From positions 1-40,333 of IMG/VR virus record IMGVR_UViG_3300044522_000078: a DNA stretch of 40,333 bases. The stretch is one strand, 5' to 3'. The DNA is from a virus. Each line of letters opens with the position of its first letter. The first letter of the stretch is position 1. The notes under the pieces were generated by a model that saw only the letters and a program-made list of their open reading frames with translations, had not been told where the DNA came from and searched no databases. The translations under genes and the position numbers were made by a program. Shown piece after piece: positions 2,427 to 25,013 of the stretch.

Positions 2427-4184
2427 ATGAGTAAAGAAGAAGCAACTACTGCTATTAATAGAGTAATTATAGACTGTCTACAAGATAAAGAAGTACGAAA
2501 AAATCTAGATTCAGAGTACCATATATTAGATATATCTTTAAGAAGTCTGGAAGTAGCTAATAATAGAGGCGGGACTTCTCCCAAAATATTATGGAGTTCT
2601 TACTGGAAATTCTTTGTAGCTGTACGTAGTGACTGTAGTAGTAGAGGCTGTGTAGTATCTACACTAGAAACAGCATTAGAAAAATTATCTAAAGGTCGAG
2701 GGGTTTGCCTAATAGGTGATAATCTATTAGCATGTAGAAACTTCAATACTGCACGAGATTTTATATCTAAAATATCAGAAACTCCTGAACTTATTGATGA
2801 TCCTAGTTTTGGACAATCATATAGAGAGCGTACTTTAAGCGAATTACAGACTGAATATGATATTCCTGCTACTATGGATAAAAATTTAAGTATATTAAAA
2901 GGTAAGGCGTATATACAAGCAAATGGAAGAATAGGTCAAATAGCTGAGGTACCTAATCCAAATGATCCAAGTAAACCAAAGCACGTATGGTTTGAAGAAC
3001 CTAATTTAGGTCCTTTCTCTGAAGTAGCTTACTATAATAGTAGAGAAGATGAATTAAATAAGCTAGTTACTACAGGACCTTTACTAGGTCCACCTAGTTT
3101 TGCAGGTGCACAGGTAACTGTAAAATCTGAAGCTACTGGAATACCTACAGGTCCTACAGAAGGTAGTAGTAGTTCAGCTATGCGAGAAATCACTATATAT
3201 ATAGATAAAGATGGTAAAAGGTACCCTTTTATAAAGCGTAATAGATTATCTGTTTTAGATCTAGGACATGCATATCTTAGTTGGTCCGAAACAGGCAGAA
3301 CCCCTCTAGGAGAGAAATTAGCGCGTATATCACAGCAAGCTATAAATTTTGACAGCACTACATCTGCCGCAATACATAGTATTATTAATAAATACCAAAA
3401 AGACTTAAACGATCATCATAGTACTGTAAAATGGACATTTTATAATGGAGTACCAAGCTCTGGCATAGAAAGCGATAGTGCAACTACTGTTATTAAAATG
3501 TCGGTGGGATACGTAGTTTTAACTGTACAACATCATAAACAGAATAATGCCCTAGCTGTGCATGAGGGACGAATTAGAGATGCAGTAGAAGCACAGTTAA
3601 TAAATTTAATTAAAGATATCCCTGGTAGTAATACTATTAGTCAAGATATCGTAGAAGGTATTACTAATAGAGTATTAAAAAAATTAGGTGGTAAACCTAG
3701 AAAACTAAAACCTCATATACCTATTAAAGATAAGGTATATGTAGAACCTATAATTGCAAAAGCTACTACTACCGCAGTATCTGGTCCTAAAAAGACTAAG
3801 AAATCAGTTTCTGGCTCTAGGCCTCCTCCAATTCGTATTAGTAGTACTGGACGTTTTGTTAGCTTAATATCTTTACAAAATCTCCTTAATCAAAACTTAG
3901 CCTCTCAGATTCAGCAAAATATGGGCATTGGTGCCCGCAAAGATATTCTTAATTATCGTAGTGGACGTCTAGCAGGTTCTGCGACAGTAGAGAAAATGAG
4001 CGCTTCTAGAGAGGGTATGATTACTGCGTTCTACTCTTATATGCGTAATCCATACGCTACTTTCTCAGTAGGTGGGGCACAGTCAAATCCAGCTAGTAGA
4101 GACCCTAAACTGCTAATATCTAAGTCAATTAGAGAAATTGGAGCCACAATGGTTGGAAATAGAATGAGGGCGGTATTAGTATGA
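2427..4184 (+). CDS. Putative neck / tail-completion protein, 585 aa
   Basis: I do not recognise the full protein. Its slot between the connector and the tail terminator is where HK97 gp10-like tail-completion proteins lie. The last ~110 residues show what I would expect of such a protein: a Y-R-S-G-R-L-A-G-S motif, a Y-x-N-P-Y-A-T-F segment and a helical Ser/Ile-rich end. The N-terminal ~450 residues look like separate modules: a helical Lys/Glu-rich start, a Pro/Gly/Ser linker (about 200-255), a mixed alpha/beta part with an H-H motif near 370, and a basic Pro-rich linker (about 420-470). It uses AGA and TTA codons heavily, unlike the capsid gene. It overlaps the next gene by four bases (ATGA). 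Role inferred mainly from position. Confidence 0.5.
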   Translation: MSKEEATTAINRVIIDCLQDKEVRKNLDSEYHILDISLRSLEVANNRGGTSPKILWSSYWKFFVAVRSDCSSRGCVVSTLETALEKLSKGRGVCLIGDNLLACRNFNTARDFISKISETPELIDDPSFGQSYRERTLSELQTEYDIPATMDKNLSILKGKAYIQANGRIGQIAEVPNPNDPSKPKHVWFEEPNLGPFSEVAYYNSREDELNKLVTTGPLLGPPSFAGAQVTVKSEATGIPTGPTEGSSSSAMREITIYIDKDGKRYPFIKRNRLSVLDLGHAYLSWSETGRTPLGEKLARISQQAINFDSTTSAAIHSIINKYQKDLNDHHSTVKWTFYNGVPSSGIESDSATTVIKMSVGYVVLTVQHHKQNNALAVHEGRIRDAVEAQLINLIKDIPGSNTISQDIVEGITNRVLKKLGGKPRKLKPHIPIKDKVYVEPIIAKATTTAVSGPKKTKKSVSGSRPPPIRISSTGRFVSLISLQNLLNQNLASQIQQNMGIGARKDILNYRSGRLAGSATVEKMSASREGMITAFYSYMRNPYATFSVGGAQSNPASRDPKLLISKSIREIGATMVGNRMRAVLV

Positions 4185-4698: not shown

Positions 4699-6198
4699 AT
4701 GGCAACAAGTAATATTAATCTAAGTAGAAATACAAAAGTATACTTCACAACAAATGTAAATACATCGGGTATTATTGCAGATGCAGACTTTACTACATCT
4801 AATACATACCAAATCCAAGTATTAGATGGATTTTCCTTCAACCAAGGAACCTCACAGTCAACGATTCAGATCTCTGAAGCGGGCAATAATCCTAGTCGTG
4901 GACAGCGTGCTTTCAATACATCTTTAAATCCAGTAGACTTTTCATTCTCAACTTATATTCGTCCTGTATTAACAACAGGCACTGCAGGCCCAGTTACATC
5001 AGCAGAAAAAGTATTATGGAATGCTTTATTCGGTGAAGTTTCTTTAGATGCTGCAGGAGTGGGGGTAACTAGTCTTACTAGAATAGCACAAGTTACTGGA
5101 ACTGGAACTGCTGCTACTACTTCAAGTACTGCTTCCCCACAAGCTACCTTAGTACTATCAGCTGCTATAACGAAGAGGGTTAATACCACTAGCACTACCG
5201 GGGTAGCTGTATCTAAAGGTGATATTATTAATATTACTGGAGCAGATATTGATGCCTTTAATAGACCTGTAAAGATTATTTCAGATGTAGCAGCTACAGA
5301 TACAGCTATTTACACTGTAGAGTATTTTATGGCTCCAGTTACTACCAGCACAGTTACTGTGACAAGTGCTAAAGCGTATGCAGGTCAGTGGGCCCAGGGA
5401 AATACTAGCACTACTGCTGCACTCAATTCTAGTTATGTTAGTACTATGGGTGCCAATAAGAATCAGTTACAAAAATTCGGAATGCTATTCGTAGTTGATA
5501 ATGTTACCTATGCTGTTGATAACTGTGCTATGGATCAAGCATCCATTGCGTTCGGATTAGATACTATTGCTACATGTGCTTGGACTGGTAAAGGTACGTC
5601 TCTAAGAACTTCTACAGCATCTATTACTGCTAGTACTGCAAATGTAAAAGCAGCATATATTACTAATAAACTATCTACGATGGTTCTAAATAGTAATATT
5701 GGTGGTGATCTATATACCACCACTGCCTCTAAACCGTATACTATTCCTATTACTGGCGGCACTATTACTATTAGTAATAATATTACATATCAAACACCTA
5801 CTAATCTAGCAGTTGTTAATGTACCTATCGGATACTATACAGGCCAACGTGCTATTAGTGGTAATGTAACAGCATATTTACGTACTGGAGATGATAGTAC
5901 TAATTCAGGATCCTTATTAACTACTCTACTAGCTAATGTCACAGGTACTGAGGGCGTAGAACCTAAGTATTATGTGAAACTAGAAATGGGCGGCGTAGGC
6001 TCAGCTAATAGAGTAGACTTCGAAATGCCTGCTGTAGTACTACAAATTCCTGCTGTAAATATTGCAGACGTAGTTGCTACTACTATTAATTTCTCTGCTC
6101 AAGGTTTTAACCCTGACGTAAAAGGACAGCAATTATTTGATATTACTAAATCTAACGAATTACTAATTCGTTACTATTCAAATACTAGTTCAACTTAA
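4699..6198 (+). CDS. Major tail tube protein
   Basis: This 499-residue protein lies between the tail terminator and the chaperone pair, the standard site of the tube protein, and a transcription terminator follows it. The N-terminus (about 1-90) has tube-like strands, with a Q-V-L-D-G-F-S-F segment and L-N-P-V-D-F-S-F-S-T-Y. A Thr/Ala/Val-rich middle (about 130-230) looks like an inserted beta domain. The C-terminal part (about 400-499) returns to a tube-like pattern (Y-Y-V-K-L-E-M-G-G, then V-D-F-E-M-P). It stacks as rings around the tape measure to form the DNA channel. It is about twice the length of lambda gpV, which suggests a decoration domain on the tail surface. The start follows a good CAGGAGA ribosome site. 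Confidence 0.75.
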   Translation: MATSNINLSRNTKVYFTTNVNTSGIIADADFTTSNTYQIQVLDGFSFNQGTSQSTIQISEAGNNPSRGQRAFNTSLNPVDFSFSTYIRPVLTTGTAGPVTSAEKVLWNALFGEVSLDAAGVGVTSLTRIAQVTGTGTAATTSSTASPQATLVLSAAITKRVNTTSTTGVAVSKGDIINITGADIDAFNRPVKIISDVAATDTAIYTVEYFMAPVTTSTVTVTSAKAYAGQWAQGNTSTTAALNSSYVSTMGANKNQLQKFGMLFVVDNVTYAVDNCAMDQASIAFGLDTIATCAWTGKGTSLRTSTASITASTANVKAAYITNKLSTMVLNSNIGGDLYTTTASKPYTIPITGGTITISNNITYQTPTNLAVVNVPIGYYTGQRAISGNVTAYLRTGDDSTNSGSLLTTLLANVTGTEGVEPKYYVKLEMGGVGSANRVDFEMPAVVLQIPAVNIADVVATTINFSAQGFNPDVKGQQLFDITKSNELLIRYYSNTSST

Positions 6199-6208
6199 AT
6201 AGTTTCAT

Positions 6209-6240
6209 AGAAGGTGGCTTGATCACCACCTTCTCTTTTT
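6209..6240 (+). terminator. Intrinsic terminator after tail tube gene
   Basis: A perfect 9-bp stem (6209-6217 with 6226-6234) with an 8-base loop is followed by CTTTTT. It lies 10 bases after the tube stop and 25 bases before the chaperone start. It should lower transcription of the chaperone genes relative to the tube gene. Confidence 0.8.
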
Positions 6241-6265: not shown

Positions 6266-6706
6266 ATGTCAATTGACAAAGTCTCAGTTACTAGTCTATC
6301 ACTAAAATCATTATTAGTTCCTAGTAAGCAAGTTGAAGTTGAGTTCCCTGGTTTTGCAGGCTTCAAAGTCCAACTTAATTTCTTATCACGTGAAACCTTA
6401 GTAGGTATTCGTAAGAAAGCTACTAAAATTACTTTTAAGAATCGCCAACCTACAGAAGAGTTGAATGATGATCTATTTCTACAGTTATATGTAGCTGCAT
6501 CTATCAAAGGCTGGTCTGGTTTTAAATTAATTTATCTAGAGCAATTAGCTCCTGTTGATTTAAAAGGTCAGGATATGGAAGCAGAACTAGAGTTTAGTGA
6601 TGAAAACGCATTATTCTTAATGAAGTCTAGTAGCAACTTTGATTCATGGATTTCGGAGCAGGTAACTGAACTGGGAAACTTTCAGAAATCCAGCGTAGGG
6701 AAGTAA
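6266..6706 (+). CDS. Tail assembly chaperone G-like (0-frame product)
   Basis: This 146-residue protein sits between the tube and tape measure genes, as lambda gpG does. It starts with beta-like segments (S-L-S-L-K-S-L-L-V-P-S, then V-E-V-E-F-P-G-F), followed by helical acidic stretches (E-E-L-N-D-D-L-F-L-Q-L-Y). It carries a -1 slippery site in its last codons (6673-6679). G-like proteins coat the tape measure during tail assembly and are absent from the finished tail. The start at 6266 has AAAGGA upstream. The 0-frame stop lies inside the frameshift stem-loop. The frameshift context makes this call firm even though the sequence itself is divergent. Confidence 0.82.
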   Translation: MSIDKVSVTSLSLKSLLVPSKQVEVEFPGFAGFKVQLNFLSRETLVGIRKKATKITFKNRQPTEELNDDLFLQLYVAASIKGWSGFKLIYLEQLAPVDLKGQDMEAELEFSDENALFLMKSSSNFDSWISEQVTELGNFQKSSVGK

Positions 6707-6721
6707 ACCAACAGCTGGATT
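6673..6721 (+). promoter_or_regulatory. -1 programmed ribosomal frameshift site
   Basis: The heptamer G GGA AAC (6673-6679) lies exactly in the X XXY YYZ phase of the G-like gene (codons CTG GGA AAC). Seven bases later an 8-bp perfect stem begins (6687-6694 paired with 6714-6721, 19-base loop). The -1 frame is open from 6679 to 7056. This matches the lambda G/GT arrangement (GGGAAAG there). Confidence 0.9.
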
Positions 6722-7056
6722 CATATTTTCAAAATAGTTCCGTTAGCATGACTAAGGAACAGTATTTTGAAATGTGTGAAATGCTAGGTACTAATCCTAT
6801 AGATTCCGAGATTCCAATAGAAATAGACGACTTACCTTTAGAAGTACAAGAAGCCATAAATATCTACAGTCATTTAAGAGATGACTGGGATTATACTGGT
6901 GGAAACTATATTGGGAAAAGTCTAATTGGATTTAAAGATATATTAAATATGTATGAAGTAAACAAATCTGACTATAAATATATGTATGAATTAATTATAT
7001 ATATAGATAGAATTAGAGCTAAACAAATACACGATAGTAAACCTAAGACTACTTAA
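6679..7056 (+). CDS. T-domain extension of tail chaperone GT (made by frameshift)
   Basis: This reading frame is entered by -1 slippage at 6673-6679. Base 6679 is read twice, and the full GT product runs 6266-7056, 138 residues from the G frame plus 125 from this one (263 in total). The extension begins L-S-E-I-Q-R-R-E-V-N-Q-Q-L and is rich in Asp, Glu, Tyr and Ile. An ATG at 6748 is in frame but has no recognisable ribosome site, so I do not think it is an independent start. In lambda the T part recruits tube protein to the G-coated tape measure. Termination is immediately followed by a strong terminator. Confidence 0.82.
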   Translation, partial: LSEIQRREVNQQLDSYFQNSSVSMTKEQYFEMCEMLGTNPIDSEIPIEIDDLPLEVQEAINIYSHLRDDWDYTGGNYIGKSLIGFKDILNMYEVNKSDYKYMYELIIYIDRIRAKQIHDSKPKTT

Positions 7057-7083
7057 AAAGCCTCCCTTGTTGGAGGCTTTTTT
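7055..7083 (+). terminator. Intrinsic terminator after chaperone genes
   Basis: An 11-bp stem (7055-7065 with 7072-7082), CTTGTT loop, G+C-rich core GCCTCC/GGAGGC, ending in a T-run. It overlaps the stop codon of the GT frame and separates the chaperone from the tape measure transcription unit. Confidence 0.87.
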
Positions 7084-7106: not shown

Positions 7107-7135
7107 TTGACTTATATCATCCTCAATGGTATAAT
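7107..7135 (+). promoter_or_regulatory. Extended -10 sigma-70 promoter for tape measure/tip block
   Basis: TTGACT (7107-7112), 17-base spacer ending in TGG, and perfect TATAAT (7130-7135). The TGN before the -10 makes it an extended -10 promoter. The same layout recurs at 23504 and 28328. It follows a terminator by 23 bases and should drive genes from 7191 onward. Confidence 0.82.
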
Positions 7136-7190: not shown

Positions 7191-10100
7191 ATGGCAGAAA
7201 ATACAGTAAATATTGGTATTAACGTATCCGATAATGGTACAACAGCAGGCATCACAAAAAATGTACAGAATTTAAAAGATGTATTAGATCAAGCTGCAGC
7301 ATCGGCTACTAAGATAGGTTCTGGTACTCCTACTGCGGGAAGTGCTACTACTAGTCGTATTACTGCAGCCAGTGCTCCTTCTAGTATGTCTTTTGGAGAA
7401 CGTAGAGAGTATGGTACTTCAAGAGCGGTAGGTGGAGGTACAGGGGCTGAAGCTAGGGATTTTGCTAAGGAATCCGCAGGCTTAGGTGGAGTAGTACGCC
7501 TATACGCAGTATTTGCAGCTAATATTTATGCAGTAAGTACTGCATTCGAAGTTTTAAGTAAAGCTAATGCAGCTGACAGAATGATAAAAGCTTCTGAAAT
7601 GCTTAGTATACAGATGGGGGCTAATCTTAAAAATATTAGTAAAAATTTACAAGAAGCTACAGATTATTCTTTAAGTTTTCAAGAAGCTACCCAATTCACT
7701 AATATGGGTATTGCTGCAGGTATTGCGGGGAAACAAATTGAAAATTTAACTAGAATTGCTAAAGGTGCCGCATCAGCACTTGGCAGAGATACGGGTGAAT
7801 CTATCAGACGTATTATTACAGGTACTGCTAAACAAGAACAAGAAATTTTAGATGAATTAGGTATCTTTGTTAAAGCCAAAGATGCTTACAAAGAATATGC
7901 TGCAAAATTCGATATTAAAGGTGGTGCAGACGCTTTAAGTGCTCAGCAAAAAGTTTCTGCTTATGCAAATGCTGTAGAAAAAGCAGGAGAAAAGTGGAAA
8001 GCATTCGCAGATATTCCTGATCCTTTTAGTAAGTTTAAAGCCAAAGGTTCCGAGGCACTACAAGAATTATTAAGTAATATTAATAAATTAATAACACCTA
8101 TAATATCTTTCTTAGCAGAATCTAGCGATAGAATTAAAGCCATAATGGTATTAATATCTGTCTTGTTAGTTAGAAGAGCGCTACCAGAATTAAAAGGTTT
8201 ATTTACAAATCTATTTACTTTTGACGCAGCTCAAGCTAAAGCAGCAGGTGACGTAGCCAGACTAACGGCGGTAAAACAGTATGCGGATATTACTTCTGCA
8301 TTGGAAGCTAAACAAGCAGAACGTGCAGCTTTAATGAATAGACCTACCAGCAGTACAGTAGCACAAGCAGTGGGAGGTTTAGCTTCTGTTAAAGGAGTAC
8401 CCGGAGGTATTAATGTAGCTTCCCTATCTTCAGCTATTGCTGCTAAAGATTTAGTTACATATACTTCTATACATGGTATACAAACAGAAATAGCTAGAGA
8501 TATAGCCAAACAATTGGCTTTAGAAGCAGATAAAACAGGTTTGATACAAAAACAAATTGATTTAGGTATACTATCTAAAGCTGCAACAGTAGATAATATA
8601 ATCTTAGGTAAAGAATCTATTATAGTTTCCGAAAAGCTTCTGTTAGAAGCTAAGAGTAAGGCAATAGTAGAGGCCGAAACTTTAGCGTTACAAACCAAAC
8701 AATTAACTTTATCTAAAGAATTAACAGCTATGGGCGCTGCGGGAGGGAAAGTACCCTTAGGCCCAACTGGAGGAGCTCCTACAACTGCAGGAACTCCTGT
8801 GACTCCTATTGCTAGCGCAGCTGGAGCCATAGCAGCAACTAAGGCTGAAGATGATCTAGCAGCAGCCCGTCTTAGATCCGGAGCAGCTGCAGGAGTATCC
8901 GGAGCAGCTGCTACAGGATTAGTAGTAGCTACTACAAGGGTAACAGTAGCTACTGTAGAAGCAGTAACTATGACTCAAGCATTTAATATGGCTTTAGCAA
9001 AAAGTGCTGCAGCTCATGAGAGATTAGCTACAACTATGGGGTTGGGTACTATAGCAAGCCTAAGAATAATGGGGAGTGTACTAGCTCAATCCTTTATGAG
9101 TATACTCAAATGGGAAGCAGGTATAGGAGCAGCAGCTGTAACAGCTACAGTATTTGGAAATGCCGTAGTATTTGCGGGAGTAGCTGTAGGTACATTAGCT
9201 AAAGCATTTATGCAATTTTTAGGCCCTATAATGTTAGTATGGGCTGCCTGGGATATATTCGGCGATAAAATCAAAGAACTATTAGGTATTAGTACTGACC
9301 TTACAAAAAAGCAAGAAGAATTAGACAAACAAAACAAAACTAGTAATGAAACTATAGGATTAATGGGGGCCTCACTTGACTTATTAAATACCAAACGTAA
9401 AGACCAGATTCAAACTTATGAAGATTTAGCAGCCGCTCATAGAATAGAAGCATCAGCTATGCAAGAAGCAAGAGCTGCTTTTGATGCTGCATCCAAAGCT
9501 GAATCAGACGTAACTAAACAATCTTTATTAGATGCTGCTAAAGCTGCTGCTGCCAAAAGAAACGATGTATTTAGTGAACGTGCTTATTTCTTTGAGCAAT
9601 TGGCTAATAATACTGAACTAACAGAAAGTCAGAGAAAAGAATACAAGGAGCAAGCAGTTTTATTCCAGAATTTTGCAAATGGTAGAATAGCAATGTTGGA
9701 TAAAATAAAGACTGCCGAAGATGCTGCAGGGGGTGCTAGGGCTAATAGAGATTATCTTAGAAGCCAGAACTCACCTGTAGCTTCCGAACAAGCAAATACT
9801 AAAGTAGTAGCTGCAGATAAGGAAGCTGCAGAAGCGAGAAATAGATTAACTGATTCTACTAAAGAGCTAGATGCCGCTGGTGTAAAACTTTTAGATAATA
9901 ATAAAGCGCGATTAGAACAATCTCAATCTTTAGACGCTGCTACTTTAAAAAGCTCTGCCGTAATTACAAAAGGTTGGGAAGATGTAGAAAAACGTAGAAA
10001 AGAAATAGCAGATCCAACATCTAAAATAAAAGATGTTAAAGTTGAAGAAATGAGAACTAACTTAGTAAAGTTGTTCGATATGACTGGTAGTGTAATGCAG

Positions 10101-12188
10101 CAAGAAGGTCGTCGTAAGATAATATTAGACTCTCTAACTGATGCTCAGAAAAATACTGTAGAGGGTACTAAATCACATGCTAAAGCAGTTTTACTATTAA
10201 ATATATATACTGCCTCGTTAGAAAAAAATGATAAAGATTTAATTAAAACATTAGCAGATGTAAAAGATGCTATGGACGAGCTATTCGGAGCTGTTGAAAA
10301 ATCACTAAAACAAGCCCCTTTCAGAGCCTATACGGATGCTGCTGAAGCTGGTTTTATTAAGTTAAAGGCTGAAATTAATAAAACTGGTCTAGACATAAAA
10401 CGTACAGATATGGAAATAGCAAATATTTCAGCAATAGATGCTAGAATTAAATCAATTCAAGGTTACTCAAATGCATTACAAATTGCAGCCTTGAATAAAG
10501 CAAGAAATGATAAAGCAGACCTAGAATTTACTAATGCAAATAAAACCGCTCAGTTAGAGTATGATAGAATAATAAGTAAAAAAGATCAAGAAGGCGATCC
10601 TAAAGCAAGAAAGCTTGCTAACGACGCAGCTTTAGTTGCACTTAATCTAGCAAAAGAAACTGCAGACTTAAATAAAAAAGCAGCACTTGCTGGCAATGTA
10701 AGTGTAAATATTAATGATAAAATAGCTGTATCCTTAGCAGTAATTGGAAAAAGATATGAAGAAATTGACCGCACAATATCTGTAATTATTGCAAAAAATA
10801 ATGCTACCCTAACTTTAGACAAAGCTAGGGTAGATGCACTATCTCAACTCAATGCTTACTCCGAAACAGGGCTAGCACTTAGAACCCGTTCATTAGAGGC
10901 TGCTAAAATAGAATCAGATTATCTACAAGCCACATCCCAAGCGCAGAAAGATAAAGATAAAGCTCAAACAGAGTTAAATGCTAAAATACAAGACAGTACT
11001 AAATTAACAGAAGAAGAAAAAATAGCGCAGGATGAGATAAAAAGTATATACGATACAAAAATAGCTTTAGCTATTATATCAAATAAACTAGCGCAGGAAA
11101 CTTTAAAAATATCTACAGAAACTAAATTGAATCTAGCTGCCCAAAATGAACTCGTAGAAAAACAGAACTTTGCACTTAGCCAATTAGAAACATTAAAAGC
11201 AAGAGAACTAATAACTAATGACGAGTACTTAGCCAAGAAGAAATTATTATCACTAGCTAGTTTAGAACAAGCCGCAGATAGGGAAAAGGGGCTAGCTATT
11301 AAAGCTCTTACGGCAGATTTAGTACCATTAGGCGAAAAATTAACAGCATTAAGCATAGTAGGTGCTGATACTACAGCACTAGATAACGAAGTTAAAGCAA
11401 CAAGAGCTGCAACAACTGCCAAGTTAGAAGGTATAGATAGAGTAAAAGCGGCTAAAGTAGATCAAGCTAAATGGGATGCTAATCAAAATGAACGTCAAAT
11501 AGGATACACTGAAACTTTTAAAACCGCTTTTAGTTCTATGAGCGATGCAGTTGCAGAATTTGCTAAAACTGGTAAACTAAACTTTAAGAGCCTAATTGAC
11601 GATATGCTAGCCAATTTGATAAAGCTTGAAATGAATATGGCGATGAAGAAGATGGTAGGAGAAGGAGGGTTCGGAGGATTAGCTACTAAAGCTATTGGCT
11701 ATTTATTTGGAGCACCTGCAGTACCTAGCGGTAGTTTCGATACTATGCCGGGCTCGGGTGCTGGTAGCGATCCTCGTATGAACAATGCAAAAGGTGGTGC
11801 TTTCGACGGCGGAATCAAAGCTTTCGCAATGGGCGGAGCATTTGCCAATTCCATCGTAAGTTCGCCAACTATATTCAAGTTCGCCAGCGGAACTGGCCTC
11901 ATGGGAGAAGCAGGCCCTGAAGCGATCATGCCTCTAAAACGCGACTCTAATGGCAATTTAGGTGTACGCGCAGGTAGTAATAACAGTGGTGGAAATGTAG
12001 AAATAGTAGTTAATAACTATGGTAATCAACAAGCAACTACTAAGGAATCTACCGATAGTAGGGGTAATAGAAAAGTAGAAGTCATGGTTGGTGATATGAC
12101 TGCGGGAGAAATTAACCGCAGTGGAAGTAGTTCACAAAAATCAATTCAAAGTACTTATGGATTACAACCAGCACTAATTAGGAGATAA
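7191..12188 (+). CDS. Tape measure protein (1665 aa)
   Basis: The protein sets tail length and is ejected with the DNA. I place the start at ATG 7191, which follows AGGAG; the frame stays open upstream to 7107, but that stretch holds the promoter. The protein is very long and mostly helical, with Ala/Lys/Glu-rich coiled-coil stretches. It has two hydrophobic segments (about residues 317-332 and a long one at 643-690) that may help cross the inner membrane. The C-terminus has a Gly-rich segment and then the hallmark G-E-A-G-P-E-A-I-M-P-L near residue 1575, common at tape measure ends. At about 1.5 angstrom per residue the tail would be near 250 nm; this is a rule-of-thumb estimate. No peptidase or lysozyme motif was noticed. 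Confidence 0.92.
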   Translation: MAENTVNIGINVSDNGTTAGITKNVQNLKDVLDQAAASATKIGSGTPTAGSATTSRITAASAPSSMSFGERREYGTSRAVGGGTGAEARDFAKESAGLGGVVRLYAVFAANIYAVSTAFEVLSKANAADRMIKASEMLSIQMGANLKNISKNLQEATDYSLSFQEATQFTNMGIAAGIAGKQIENLTRIAKGAASALGRDTGESIRRIITGTAKQEQEILDELGIFVKAKDAYKEYAAKFDIKGGADALSAQQKVSAYANAVEKAGEKWKAFADIPDPFSKFKAKGSEALQELLSNINKLITPIISFLAESSDRIKAIMVLISVLLVRRALPELKGLFTNLFTFDAAQAKAAGDVARLTAVKQYADITSALEAKQAERAALMNRPTSSTVAQAVGGLASVKGVPGGINVASLSSAIAAKDLVTYTSIHGIQTEIARDIAKQLALEADKTGLIQKQIDLGILSKAATVDNIILGKESIIVSEKLLLEAKSKAIVEAETLALQTKQLTLSKELTAMGAAGGKVPLGPTGGAPTTAGTPVTPIASAAGAIAATKAEDDLAAARLRSGAAAGVSGAAATGLVVATTRVTVATVEAVTMTQAFNMALAKSAAAHERLATTMGLGTIASLRIMGSVLAQSFMSILKWEAGIGAAAVTATVFGNAVVFAGVAVGTLAKAFMQFLGPIMLVWAAWDIFGDKIKELLGISTDLTKKQEELDKQNKTSNETIGLMGASLDLLNTKRKDQIQTYEDLAAAHRIEASAMQEARAAFDAASKAESDVTKQSLLDAAKAAAAKRNDVFSERAYFFEQLANNTELTESQRKEYKEQAVLFQNFANGRIAMLDKIKTAEDAAGGARANRDYLRSQNSPVASEQANTKVVAADKEAAEARNRLTDSTKELDAAGVKLLDNNKARLEQSQSLDAATLKSSAVITKGWEDVEKRRKEIADPTSKIKDVKVEEMRTNLVKLFDMTGSVMQQEGRRKIILDSLTDAQKNTVEGTKSHAKAVLLLNIYTASLEKNDKDLIKTLADVKDAMDELFGAVEKSLKQAPFRAYTDAAEAGFIKLKAEINKTGLDIKRTDMEIANISAIDARIKSIQGYSNALQIAALNKARNDKADLEFTNANKTAQLEYDRIISKKDQEGDPKARKLANDAALVALNLAKETADLNKKAALAGNVSVNINDKIAVSLAVIGKRYEEIDRTISVIIAKNNATLTLDKARVDALSQLNAYSETGLALRTRSLEAAKIESDYLQATSQAQKDKDKAQTELNAKIQDSTKLTEEEKIAQDEIKSIYDTKIALAIISNKLAQETLKISTETKLNLAAQNELVEKQNFALSQLETLKARELITNDEYLAKKKLLSLASLEQAADREKGLAIKALTADLVPLGEKLTALSIVGADTTALDNEVKATRAATTAKLEGIDRVKAAKVDQAKWDANQNERQIGYTETFKTAFSSMSDAVAEFAKTGKLNFKSLIDDMLANLIKLEMNMAMKKMVGEGGFGGLATKAIGYLFGAPAVPSGSFDTMPGSGAGSDPRMNNAKGGAFDGGIKAFAMGGAFANSIVSSPTIFKFASGTGLMGEAGPEAIMPLKRDSNGNLGVRAGSNNSGGNVEIVVNNYGNQQATTKESTDSRGNRKVEVMVGDMTAGEINRSGSSSQKSIQSTYGLQPALIRR

Positions 12189-13259: not shown

Positions 13260-21660
<8,401 letters not shown>

Positions 21661-21664
<4 letters not shown>

Positions 21665-21999
21665 CATACGGACTACAGATATTCGATTCTGTAGGTACTA
21701 AAACTTTCGATTCCACAACCGCCGCTGGCGGTTGTGTAGTTGATATGGTACCTCTTATCATTAATAGTGGTACAGGAAGCGTATATAATACAGGTACTCA
21801 GACAGGTATGCAATATAAAACATACCCCGATTTCGCAGGAAGAACTGCGTATGTTATATTAATATCCGGATACGCAAATAATACATCTCCTGTAGTAGAC
21901 TATGATCTAGGATATCCTAGAGTAACTTTTTATCCTTTTAGTACGGCTGGTTATAGTACCGCGTATCCTCCTGAAGTTTATATGGTATTTGTACTATGA
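21661..21999 (+). CDS. Small tail-tip-associated protein, M-T-Y-G-L family, copy 1
   Basis: This 112-residue protein starts inside the stop of the giant tip gene (ATGA) and begins M-T-Y-G-L-Q-I-F-D. The next gene starts in the same way (M-T-Y-G-L-K-I-D-N), so the two are probably distant paralogues sharing an N-terminal strand. The body is beta-rich with many Tyr, Pro and Thr residues and no membrane segment. I recall small phage proteins with this start (DUF6453-like) encoded beside J-type proteins; the exact function is unknown. Position suggests a tip accessory or cap protein. Translation is coupled on both sides by ATGA overlaps. Confidence 0.6.
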
Positions 22000-23066
22000 C
22001 ATACGGTCTTAAAATAGATAACTCTTTAGGAAAATTAGTTCTTTCTTCAGATGCATTAGGTTATAGATATGTAGGTACTGCCAGTTTAGTATCTTCAGCA
22101 AGTAAATCTGGTACATTTGGTACACTTACGCCTTATGTATATAGCATAACATTACCTGCAGGCGCAGTGTATCCTATAGTAGGTATAAAATTAACTCCGA
22201 ATTCTCTTGTTAATGTATATTCTGTATCTAATGTTCAGCAAGCTACATCCCTAACATATATTTATGGATATGCAGGAGCCAAAAGAGCGGTAGATACTAG
22301 TACAGGTAATATATATTTTAATTCTGATAGCCTTTCAGGTGGTTTAGTATACGGTCAAAACTATGGTATATTAACAGTTAGAAATAACTGTATCTACGAA
22401 GGAGAAAAGATTGTATATGGATTAGAGTATCAGGCTTCCCCCCCAGGATATAGAGCAGTTTATCCACCTACTAATGGCAGTAAACCCGCATCATATATTC
22501 CCACTACTTCAAAATTAGTTATAACAGTTGATTCTATTAGTACGGCTACTAACTATAGAAATTACTCTGCTTTAACCTTCTCTGTGCCTACAGTATACGC
22601 CTTTTGCCCCTATGTTAATTCTGATGGTAATTCAGGGTATGGTTTAAATTTATATGATTCCTCAGGTACTAATCTAACTTTTAGTTCTAATAAACTACCT
22701 ATGTCTATCAATCAAACTAGAGATTTTGCATATGCTACTACGTTTAAAAGTGACGGTTATGGATCTTTTAATAATGGTTCAGACCTTTATACGACGGGAC
22801 AATCTATGTCTTGGAATAATATAACTAATCCTGTAATGCTAGTAGGGCAAGGATTAGGCAGTGTAATATGCGAAAGACAGTCTATAAACCCAGGAGAAAT
22901 TATATTTGAAGAGAATTTTGGATGGATGTATATAGGCAGTACCTTAATGAGAATGCCCTATAGAGTAAATCAATCATCTTTTACTTATGATACCTCCTTG
23001 GATAGTGTAGATGTTAATGTATCCCCGGTAAGAACAATAATAGTTGATGGTACTAATTTTACATAA
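21996..23066 (+). CDS. Tail-tip-associated protein, M-T-Y-G-L family, copy 2
   Basis: This 356-residue protein begins in the stop codon of copy 1 (ATGA). After the shared M-T-Y-G-L start it is a long beta-rich protein with many Tyr, Ser and Gly residues, including L-V-Y-G-Q-N-Y-G-I-L and G-W-M-Y-I-G-S-T near the end. No catalytic motif or coiled coil is visible. It is probably an elongated structural or adhesin protein at the tail tip. It is three times longer than copy 1, so any homology would be confined to the N-terminal part and fold. Function beyond virion association is a guess. Confidence 0.55.
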   Translation: MTYGLKIDNSLGKLVLSSDALGYRYVGTASLVSSASKSGTFGTLTPYVYSITLPAGAVYPIVGIKLTPNSLVNVYSVSNVQQATSLTYIYGYAGAKRAVDTSTGNIYFNSDSLSGGLVYGQNYGILTVRNNCIYEGEKIVYGLEYQASPPGYRAVYPPTNGSKPASYIPTTSKLVITVDSISTATNYRNYSALTFSVPTVYAFCPYVNSDGNSGYGLNLYDSSGTNLTFSSNKLPMSINQTRDFAYATTFKSDGYGSFNNGSDLYTTGQSMSWNNITNPVMLVGQGLGSVICERQSINPGEIIFEENFGWMYIGSTLMRMPYRVNQSSFTYDTSLDSVDVNVSPVRTIIVDGTNFT

Positions 23067-23990: not shown

Positions 23991-25013
23991 ATGTTAGGAG
24001 TTATAGCTAGTATAGGATCTGGTCTTATAGCACTTATAGCTAAACAAAGTGAAAAAATAGCAGGTGTCCTAGCTGCTAGTGATAAAACTACATCCGTAGA
24101 TGTAACTAGTAATCTATCCGCTAGTGTAGAAACACGCAGTGGAATATTAGTAAATATTATTGCTATAAGTAATAAACTTGCAAGTGCAGAAAATTCTCGT
24201 AACTTAGTACTTTCAGTAGTACAAGGTATATTTATACTTATTCTACAATTCTTTGATACTGTAGCTATTAAAGATAGTACGCTTATTGGTATTAATAAAA
24301 GTATTACGGATGATCTCACTACAGTAGATATTACTATAGTTGAAACTACAAATTTAGGTACTATCAAGAATGCTGTAGAACCTATAACTTTAGTAGATGT
24401 TCCTAGTACAGTTACTAGCTTTAATCGCACAGTTACAGAACCTATAACTTTAGTAGATGCTCCTAGTACAGTTACTAGCTTTAATCGCACAGTTACAGAA
24501 CCTATAACTTTAGTAGATGCTCCTAGTACAGCTACTAGCTTTAATCGCACAGTTACAGAACCTATAACTATAGTTGAAACTACAAATTTAGGTACTATCA
24601 AGAATGCTGTAGAACCTATAACTTTAGTAGATGTTCCTAGTACAGTTACTAGCTTTAATCGTACAGTTACAGAACCCATAGCTTTAGCAGATACTCTCAG
24701 TACAGTTACTAGCTTTAATCGTACAACTACAGAACCCATAGCTTTAGTAGATACTTTCAGTATAGCGGCCAATTTTAACTCTACTATTTCGGATCCTATA
24801 ACTTTAGTAGATGTTCCTAGTACAGTTACTAGCTTTAATCCTGCTATTTCGGAACCTATAGCTCTAGTAGATGTTCCTAGTACAATTACTAGTTTTAATC
24901 GCAGAGCTACAGAACCTATAGCTCTAGCAGATATTGGTAGAATTACTATTTTTAGTTATTCAAATCCTGATTATTTTAGTGAAGACTACGTTGGTACTTT
25001 TACTACATTTTAA
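23991..25013 (+). CDS. Fibre-like protein with eight 20-residue repeats
   Basis: This 340-residue protein starts five bases after the BppU-like gene. Residues 1-25 and about 78-90 are hydrophobic (G-I-F-I-L-I-L-Q-F-F) and might anchor or trimerise it. From residue 130 it is built of 20-residue units of the type E-P-I-T-L-V-D-x-P-S-T-V-T-S-F-N-R-T-V-T: three, then an 18-residue spacer, then five more that diverge toward the end. The C-terminus is aromatic (Y-S-N-P-D-Y-F). Regular short beta repeats of this kind form fibre shafts. The DNA repeats are nearly identical, so copy number could change by recombination. The fibre role is inferred from repeats and context; I do not recognise a named family. 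Confidence 0.6.
   Translation: MLGVIASIGSGLIALIAKQSEKIAGVLAASDKTTSVDVTSNLSASVETRSGILVNIIAISNKLASAENSRNLVLSVVQGIFILILQFFDTVAIKDSTLIGINKSITDDLTTVDITIVETTNLGTIKNAVEPITLVDVPSTVTSFNRTVTEPITLVDAPSTVTSFNRTVTEPITLVDAPSTATSFNRTVTEPITIVETTNLGTIKNAVEPITLVDVPSTVTSFNRTVTEPIALADTLSTVTSFNRTTTEPIALVDTFSIAANFNSTISDPITLVDVPSTVTSFNPAISEPIALVDVPSTITSFNRRATEPIALADIGRITIFSYSNPDYFSEDYVGTFTTF
24333..24911 (+). repeat. 60-bp tandem repeats with a 95-nt exact repeat
   Basis: Full 60-bp units start at 24378, 24438, 24498, 24612, 24672, 24732, 24792 and 24852; a 54-bp variant occupies 24558-24611. Bases 24333-24427 and 24567-24661 are identical (95 nt, 234 bases apart), showing a recent duplication of a block of units. 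Confidence 0.9.

Follow-up and report, generated by a model that had tools for sequence, protein, structure and literature searches.

The window analyzed here is the whole stretch of 40,333 bases of a single virus record (IMGVR_UViG_3300044522_000078), and the genes between 1795 and 12188 look like a tail module of the T5 type, with a head-tail adaptor, a p143-like completion protein, a tail terminator, the major tail protein, chaperones and the tape measure protein. Two overlapping genes, G and T (6266 to 7056), lie between the gene for the major tail protein (4699 to 6198; phrog_3575) and the tape measure ORF (about 7191 to 12188; phrog_3779 and Tape_meas_lam_C), which is the order found in phage lambda. 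G (6266 to 6706, + strand) is read in the 0 frame and encodes 146 amino acids matching PHROG 313 ("Tail assembly chaperone"; E-value of 2.3e-15). The T domain (6679 to 7056, + strand; stop codon at 7054 to 7056) is read in the −1 frame and contributes 125 amino acids, which match the tail assembly chaperones of PHROG 3914 (E-value of 9.5e-13). The fused product, GT, would have 138 + 125 = 263 amino acids. A search of Pfam returned a single sub-threshold match for G, to Phage_TAC_5, and none for the T domain of the window.

The likeness to T5-like phages (Demerecviridae) concerns the tail genes, which match phrog_3575, Phage_tail_terminator_7, T5_p143 and phrog_313/phrog_3914; the match to T5_p143 is weak and lies under the Pfam cut-off. 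The G and T genes of T5-like isolates match the same two families, phrog_313 and phrog_3914, and there are short DNA matches between the window and T5-like major tail genes. A tblastn search with G found 894 phage records, every one with less than 60% identity and most of them from phages of Vibrio, Salmonella, Escherichia and Klebsiella. The 23 T5-like records examined from these matches are Demerecviridae or unclassified. A plasmid search with G gave no match.

A slippery heptamer and a stem-loop at the end of G

The heptamer G GGA AAC lies in the phase of G at 6673 to 6679, close to the end of the gene. It is followed by a 7-nt spacer (6680 to 6686) and a putative stimulator stem, in which the 5′ arm AATCCAGC (6687 to 6694) pairs with the 3′ arm GCTGGATT (6714 to 6721) around a 19-nt loop (6695 to 6713). 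The 0-frame stop codon of G, TAA at 6704 to 6706, is located in this loop. On the same + strand, a TGA at 6667 to 6669 bounds the T frame, which opens at 6670, 3 nt 5′ of the heptamer, and stays open to the end of T. The first start codon in the T frame is an ATG at 6748 to 6750, with no visible Shine-Dalgarno-like sequence on its 5′ side.

A sequence-only reading of this DNA had claimed a −1 programmed frameshift that joins the chaperones G and GT. It had placed GGGAAAC in exact phase at 6673 to 6679, with a 7-base gap, a perfect 8-bp stem, a 19-base loop holding the 0-frame stop and a −1 frame open to 7056 that carries the T domain. The reading frame of G, the coordinates of the stem-loop, the translation and the match to PHROG 3914 bear out these details, and the comparative evidence given below strongly supports the core claim. 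Scanning the window's long frames on the + strand for a short list of heptamer types gives 52 matches in phase, of which 2, GGGAAAC included, lead into a −1 frame of at least 60 codons.

Conservation of the −1 site among relatives

We considered the conservation of the heptamer a stronger test than chance statistics of the hairpin. In a first scan of 80 relatives, G ends with an in-phase heptamer in 79, and the −1 frame behind it remains open, in a few of them as far as the end of the contig. Over all scans 238 loci were classified, the window included; L202 was then removed because its contig ends at the stop codon of G, which makes the frame call meaningless. The other rows left out are L001 and L002, which are the window itself, L218 and L234, in which G runs off the contig, and L168, a 35.8-kb contig whose match covers only 21 residues of the G protein of a Vibrio phage and whose fetched part holds no full G that we could find. 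L161, used as a query, found no relative.

The T frame is −1 in 190 loci, counting the window, and 189 of these have an in-phase heptamer: AAATTTT in 131, GGGAAAC in 50 and AAATTTC in 8. Locus counts include re-fetches of one contig and near copies, hence we also give counts of distinct sequences; the −1 loci correspond to 107 distinct 100-nt sequences. The two types of heptamer sit one codon apart in the same L-x-N-F motif, with GGA AAC on Gly-Asn and AAT TTY on Asn-Phe. On a tree of 85 G proteins (148 columns, without an outgroup and hence unrooted), five changes on supported branches are needed for each heptamer label. Once the −1/+1 split or L041 is set aside, about four switches from one heptamer to the other remain when counted by eye on the tree, so the site hopped by one codon more than once.

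The sole −1 relative without a heptamer is L041, which reads TTA AGC AAT TTT CAG (3349 to 3384) where others have CTG GGA AAC TTT CAG. Either L041 shifts at UUU alone or it is a defective record.

The stem is patchy and probably stimulatory

In the window, the 43-nt hairpin region folds with −15.4 kcal/mol (z of −5.8), a value equaled by none of 200 shuffles. Folding as good as this occurs in 1.6% of 832 windows at the same locus, and a hairpin as good at that spacing occurs at 1.6% of 192 control positions. RNAfold adds four pairs within the loop, so the loop need not be fully open. By eye, the loop sequence GGGAA could also form a pseudoknot with a downstream UUCC.

Among the 107 distinct −1 loci, 80 have a helix of at least 5 bp with net negative energy 4 to 11 nt 3′ of the heptamer, and in 68 the hairpin ranks in the best 5% of control positions. 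These best stems are unevenly spread over the heptamers, being found in 55 of 66 distinct AAATTTT sequences, 13 of 35 with GGGAAAC and none of the 6 with AAATTTC. A stem at that spacing is absent from 19 of the 35 GGGAAAC and all 6 AAATTTC sequences, and L005 and L006, both close relatives, lack one. A blunter measure, the minimum free energy of windows, ranked 11 of 43 representative loci among the best 5% and was superseded by the hairpin-specific scan.

Helices of at least 6 consecutive pairs occupy discrete registers. The register of the window is used by 8 of 34 GGGAAAC sequences, falling to 0 to 2 when slid by one to three positions, and two AAATTTT registers are used by 28 and 24 of 63 sequences, falling to 0 to 2 and 0 to 4, respectively. 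These counts took all distinct sequences; separate tables of pairs are biased, as they used only loci already having a stem at the place. The arms of the stem vary in sequence between groups yet keep pairing. The stop codon of G lies inside the loop in 15 of 16 GGGAAAC stems, versus 8 of 64 AAATTTT stems. We conclude that the stem is genuine, though patchy, and probably stimulatory. Because it is missing from L005, L006, many GGGAAAC sequences and all AAATTTC sequences, it is not generally required, and we regard it as dispensable.

How the T frame is entered

The conserved heptamers, together with coding in the −1 frame before any start codon, make a −1 frameshift to a 263-residue GT very likely, and we are highly confident in −1 programmed ribosomal frameshifting as the source of GT in the window. 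The majority of ribosomes would end at 6704 to 6706 and yield the 146-residue chaperone G. A minority would step back by one base, with the Gly-tRNA moving from GGA to GGG in the P site and the Asn-tRNA simultaneously from AAC to AAA in the A site, while the stem 7 nt ahead probably holds the ribosome during the slip. The slipped ribosomes would then continue in the T frame to 7056 and complete GT. The efficiency of the slip presumably sets the ratio of G to GT, with G in excess. If the chaperones work as in lambda, the tape measure protein would be bound by G and by the G portion of GT, and the tail tube protein would be recruited by T. A point that may count against a slip on GGGAAAC is the preference of E. 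coli, in which heptamers ending in AAG shift strongly and A_AAA_AAG shifts far better than A_AAA_AAC, according to PMC5009743.

Could T instead be a separate protein that starts at the ATG at 6748, next to an incidental heptamer? The Met at this position is common to 12 of 12 close relatives compared, and several T5-like genome records were deposited with an internal start annotated for T, for example, in Slocum with a marked ribosome binding site. However, there is no ATG, GTG or TTG in the −1 frame of the window between 6670 and 6748, and the 13 codons before the ATG (6709 to 6747) vary like −1-frame coding sequence. In 12 close relatives, including the window, we counted 214, 167 and 432 differences on −1 codon positions 1, 2 and 3, respectively (pairwise and hence non-independent counts), and a frameshift is the simplest entry into such a stretch. 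Moreover, 29 of the 107 distinct −1 sequences lack an ATG in the first 42 T-frame codons, and a Shine-Dalgarno-like word precedes the first ATG in only 3 of the other 78. This coding signature and the missing start codons led us to reject an internal start, which would also leave the heptamers in 189 of 190 loci unexplained; we rate it as very unlikely. Just as improbable is a shift one codon later in the window, on AAC UUU or on UUU alone. Sister lineages with AAATTTY or UUU_CGN pivot on the Phe codon, and L041 retains AAT TTT without a heptamer. Such a shift in the window, however, would require UUU to re-pair with CUU, whereas the slip on GGA AAC leads to pairing with GGG AAA, and GGGAAAC recurs in 50 loci with the window included.

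Transcriptional slippage would join the two frames equally well. However, the runs at the sites comprise just 3 bases (GGG AAA) or 3 to 4 bases (AAA TTTT), which is short for slippage by a polymerase, and an in-phase heptamer with a downstream stem is what ribosomal shifting predicts; we consider a transcriptional origin extremely unlikely. An assembly error or a decayed gene might be suspected in one virus record, but the layout recurs in about 107 distinct sequences on many contigs. This recurrence refutes such an artifact, to which we assign a negligible probability.

T5-like isolates have T in the +1 frame at TTT CGN

In the named T5-like isolates the T frame is +1 relative to G, and an in-phase TTT CGT or TTT CGA is present in 23 of 23 (18 of 18 and 5 of 5). 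These isolates were chosen from about 890 records found, several being near copies of one another, and they span Markadamsvirinae, Mccorquodalevirinae, Ermolyevavirinae, Sugarlandvirus, Priunavirus, Novosibvirus and unassigned records; the last five were added after the tree was made and are absent from it. All 47 surveyed +1 loci have TTT CGN in phase (41 CGT and 6 CGA) with a +1 ORF open across it, as do the 5 further isolates. One environmental contig, L242, belongs to these +1 loci. In contrast, an in-phase TTTCG occurs in the last 60 nt of G in none of the 190 −1 loci, and the window, with T in the −1 frame and GGGAAAC, falls outside this group.

Several features single out the hexamer. 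In 17 of 17 representative +1 G genes the site has TTT, versus 53% of other Phe codons, and CGT or CGA, versus 56% of other Arg codons, both comparisons being uncorrected for shared ancestry. The +1 T frame opens just 5 nt 5′ of TTT in 13 of the 17 representative genes. In L156 and L160 the stop codon of G directly follows CGT, so the overlap contains little besides the hexamer. For 13 chosen +1 sequences, the stretch from 24 to 72 nt past the site, which precedes the first ATG, has 333, 270 and 598 differences on +1 codon positions.

We aligned the fused GT proteins of 83 of the 84 labeled tree representatives with a site, requiring a T domain of at least 90 amino acids. The last 0-frame residue is the same Phe column in 17 of 17 +1 and 44 of 44 AAATTTY proteins, and the Asn one column earlier in 22 of 22 GGGAAAC proteins, with no gaps close to the junction. 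In the unrooted G tree, a well-supported branch (100/98) separates the +1 loci from the others; for this tree the program gives a warning about long branches within the +1 group.

In the T5-like phages, the P-site Phe-tRNA would move from UUU to UUC, a +1 step giving a co-linear GT, as the conservation of the hexamer suggests. This move is always possible because the next codon begins with C. A −2 slip was rejected on these sequences, as UUU would need to re-pair with CUU, ACU, CCU, GGU and others across the isolates, whereas a +1 slip always offers UUC. An in-phase C CCA AAA is also present in 14 of 47 +1 loci. As a shift site of tequintaviruses it was discarded, since 14 of 26 IMG/VR tequintavirus loci have it and 12 do not, and in all 14 the −1 frame that it leads into ends after 5 codons. 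In GenBank, the entry for Shivani has G and T joined into a single CDS, whose 832-nt span fits either +1 or −2, indicating that annotators had already noticed the overlap. The portions of the Shivani genome announcement available to us do not mention joined chaperone frames under the terms searched.

Comparison with known systems

Tail chaperones G and GT of phage lambda were reportedly described in 1993 (Levin) and 2004 (Xu). The window shares with lambda a GGGAAA heptamer placed for a −1 shift close to the end of G, a long T extension, a GT of similar size (279 amino acids in lambda versus 263) and the position of the chaperone gene between those for the major tail and tape measure proteins. 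It differs in the last base of the heptamer, C instead of the G of GGGAAAG, and in its strong stem, where lambda, at the same distance, offers only a helix of 6 bp that includes G-U pairs. The likeness is one of layout, size and gene order, and the chaperone families matched by the window are phrog_313 and phrog_3914. The sequence-only reading had spoken of a textbook lambda-type arrangement with a different last base. Lambda does have a −1 overlap and a GGGAAA heptamer, but a stem with the stop codon in its loop is not a feature of lambda. The last base does differ, yet it is not new: the available text of the respective papers reports tail-chaperone frameshifting on GGGAAAC for Caulobacter phage Colossus (PMC3556154) and halovirus HCTV-1 (PMC5009743). 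Both share the heptamer and the gene function with the window and belong to other phage groups. The parts of PMC5009743 at hand also treat G-GT frameshifting by −1, −2 or +1 in different phages as established.

The closest comparison is with T5-like phages (Shivani, KEY, pVp-1 and phiR2-01), which have homologous G and T genes upstream of the tape measure gene and a GT junction at the same protein column as the family of the window. In these phages, however, T is in the +1 frame, an in-phase TTT CGN replaces the −1 heptamer, and an extra tail gene precedes G, which the window lacks at that place. UUU_CGN is known as the +1 shift motif of influenza A virus PA-X and of plant amalgaviruses, as stated in the sections of PMC5052127 available. 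The hexamer, its phase and the +1 position of the next gene are identical in T5-like phages, but PA-X and the amalgaviruses belong to unrelated, eukaryotic viruses, and it is conservation that points to use of the motif in T5-like phages. In the available text of the papers found, UUU_CGN is reported for eukaryotic viruses. The codon CGU is common in E. coli. Hence, the rare-codon argument used for UUU_CGN elsewhere does not simply apply.

One family, probably with two shift directions

The site of the window is one more member of a well-known class and ordinary in kind. The part that deserves the attention of specialists is an apparent family-wide reversal of direction around one codon. We think it likely, judging from the sequences, that one chaperone family reversed the direction of its shift while keeping the same fusion point: environmental T5-type phages, including the window, would use A AAU UUY for a −1 shift, or else G GGA AAC one codon before it, with about four one-codon hops between them, and cultured T5-like phages would shift +1 at UUU_CGN. 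The same Phe codon and tRNA would serve as the pivot in both directions, and at the level of the family the shift appears to turn on this conserved codon.

If true, this reading would supply the missing GT mechanism for T5, and it predicts that T5-like phages, which are a model group, have a defined +1 site. The announcement of phage Sugarland, in the part available to us, describes a tape measure chaperone, like that of T5, without a predicted frameshift signal (PMC6256483). Gene callers would gain a +1 motif to seek in tail chaperones; the available portions of the PRFect paper state that no general forward motif was identified (PMC10885494). The family also forms a natural series, with the product fixed and the slip direction, the position of the heptamer and the stem varying, and hence what selects −1 or +1 can be tested with minimal constructs in E. 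coli. We found no description of a +1 shift in T5-like tail chaperones in the open-access literature searched, to the extent that its text was accessible and with subscription papers mostly outside its scope; this absence is not proof of novelty.

Flanking signals and other ORFs of the window

A terminator-like hairpin (7059 to 7078) with a T run (7059 to 7083 in all, + strand) lies between GT and the tape measure gene. It was not listed by a simple terminator scan, and the only Rfam matches, all below the gathering score, lie at this terminator. With a custom scan, a terminator-like hairpin was found after T in 31 of 32 distinct +1, 24 of 34 GGGAA and 12 of 73 AAATT loci, and Erwinia phage KEY has an annotated terminator at the equivalent place. 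A promoter-like match follows at 7107 to 7135 (TTGACT, 17 nt, TATAAT; 11 of 12 positions), but such sites are not more numerous than in shuffles (2 versus 4.2). Together, the hairpin and the promoter-like match suggest that the transcription of GT may be separate from that of the tape measure gene. Another terminator-like hairpin, at 6209 to 6234, is located immediately 3′ of the major tail protein gene and 5′ of G.

Elsewhere in the window, one ORF (79 to 1713) has, in front of the major capsid protein, a match to the end of the prohead protease profile (Peptidase_S78), and its frame may start upstream of the window. An in-phase AAATTTA, ten bases 5′ of the stop codon of a 2801-residue ORF, leads into a 113-codon −1 frame (21652 to 21999) that is the next ORF (21661 to 21999). 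Since this ORF could also start at an ATG of its own, in an ATGA overlap, the heptamer there may be due to chance. Two neighboring ORFs (21661 to 23066) each start with MTYGL and may be two copies of one tail protein that have diverged, and the ORF at 23991 to 25013 has repeated TEPITLVDAPSTVTSFNR-like units, close to those of collagen-like Gly-X-Y tail proteins.
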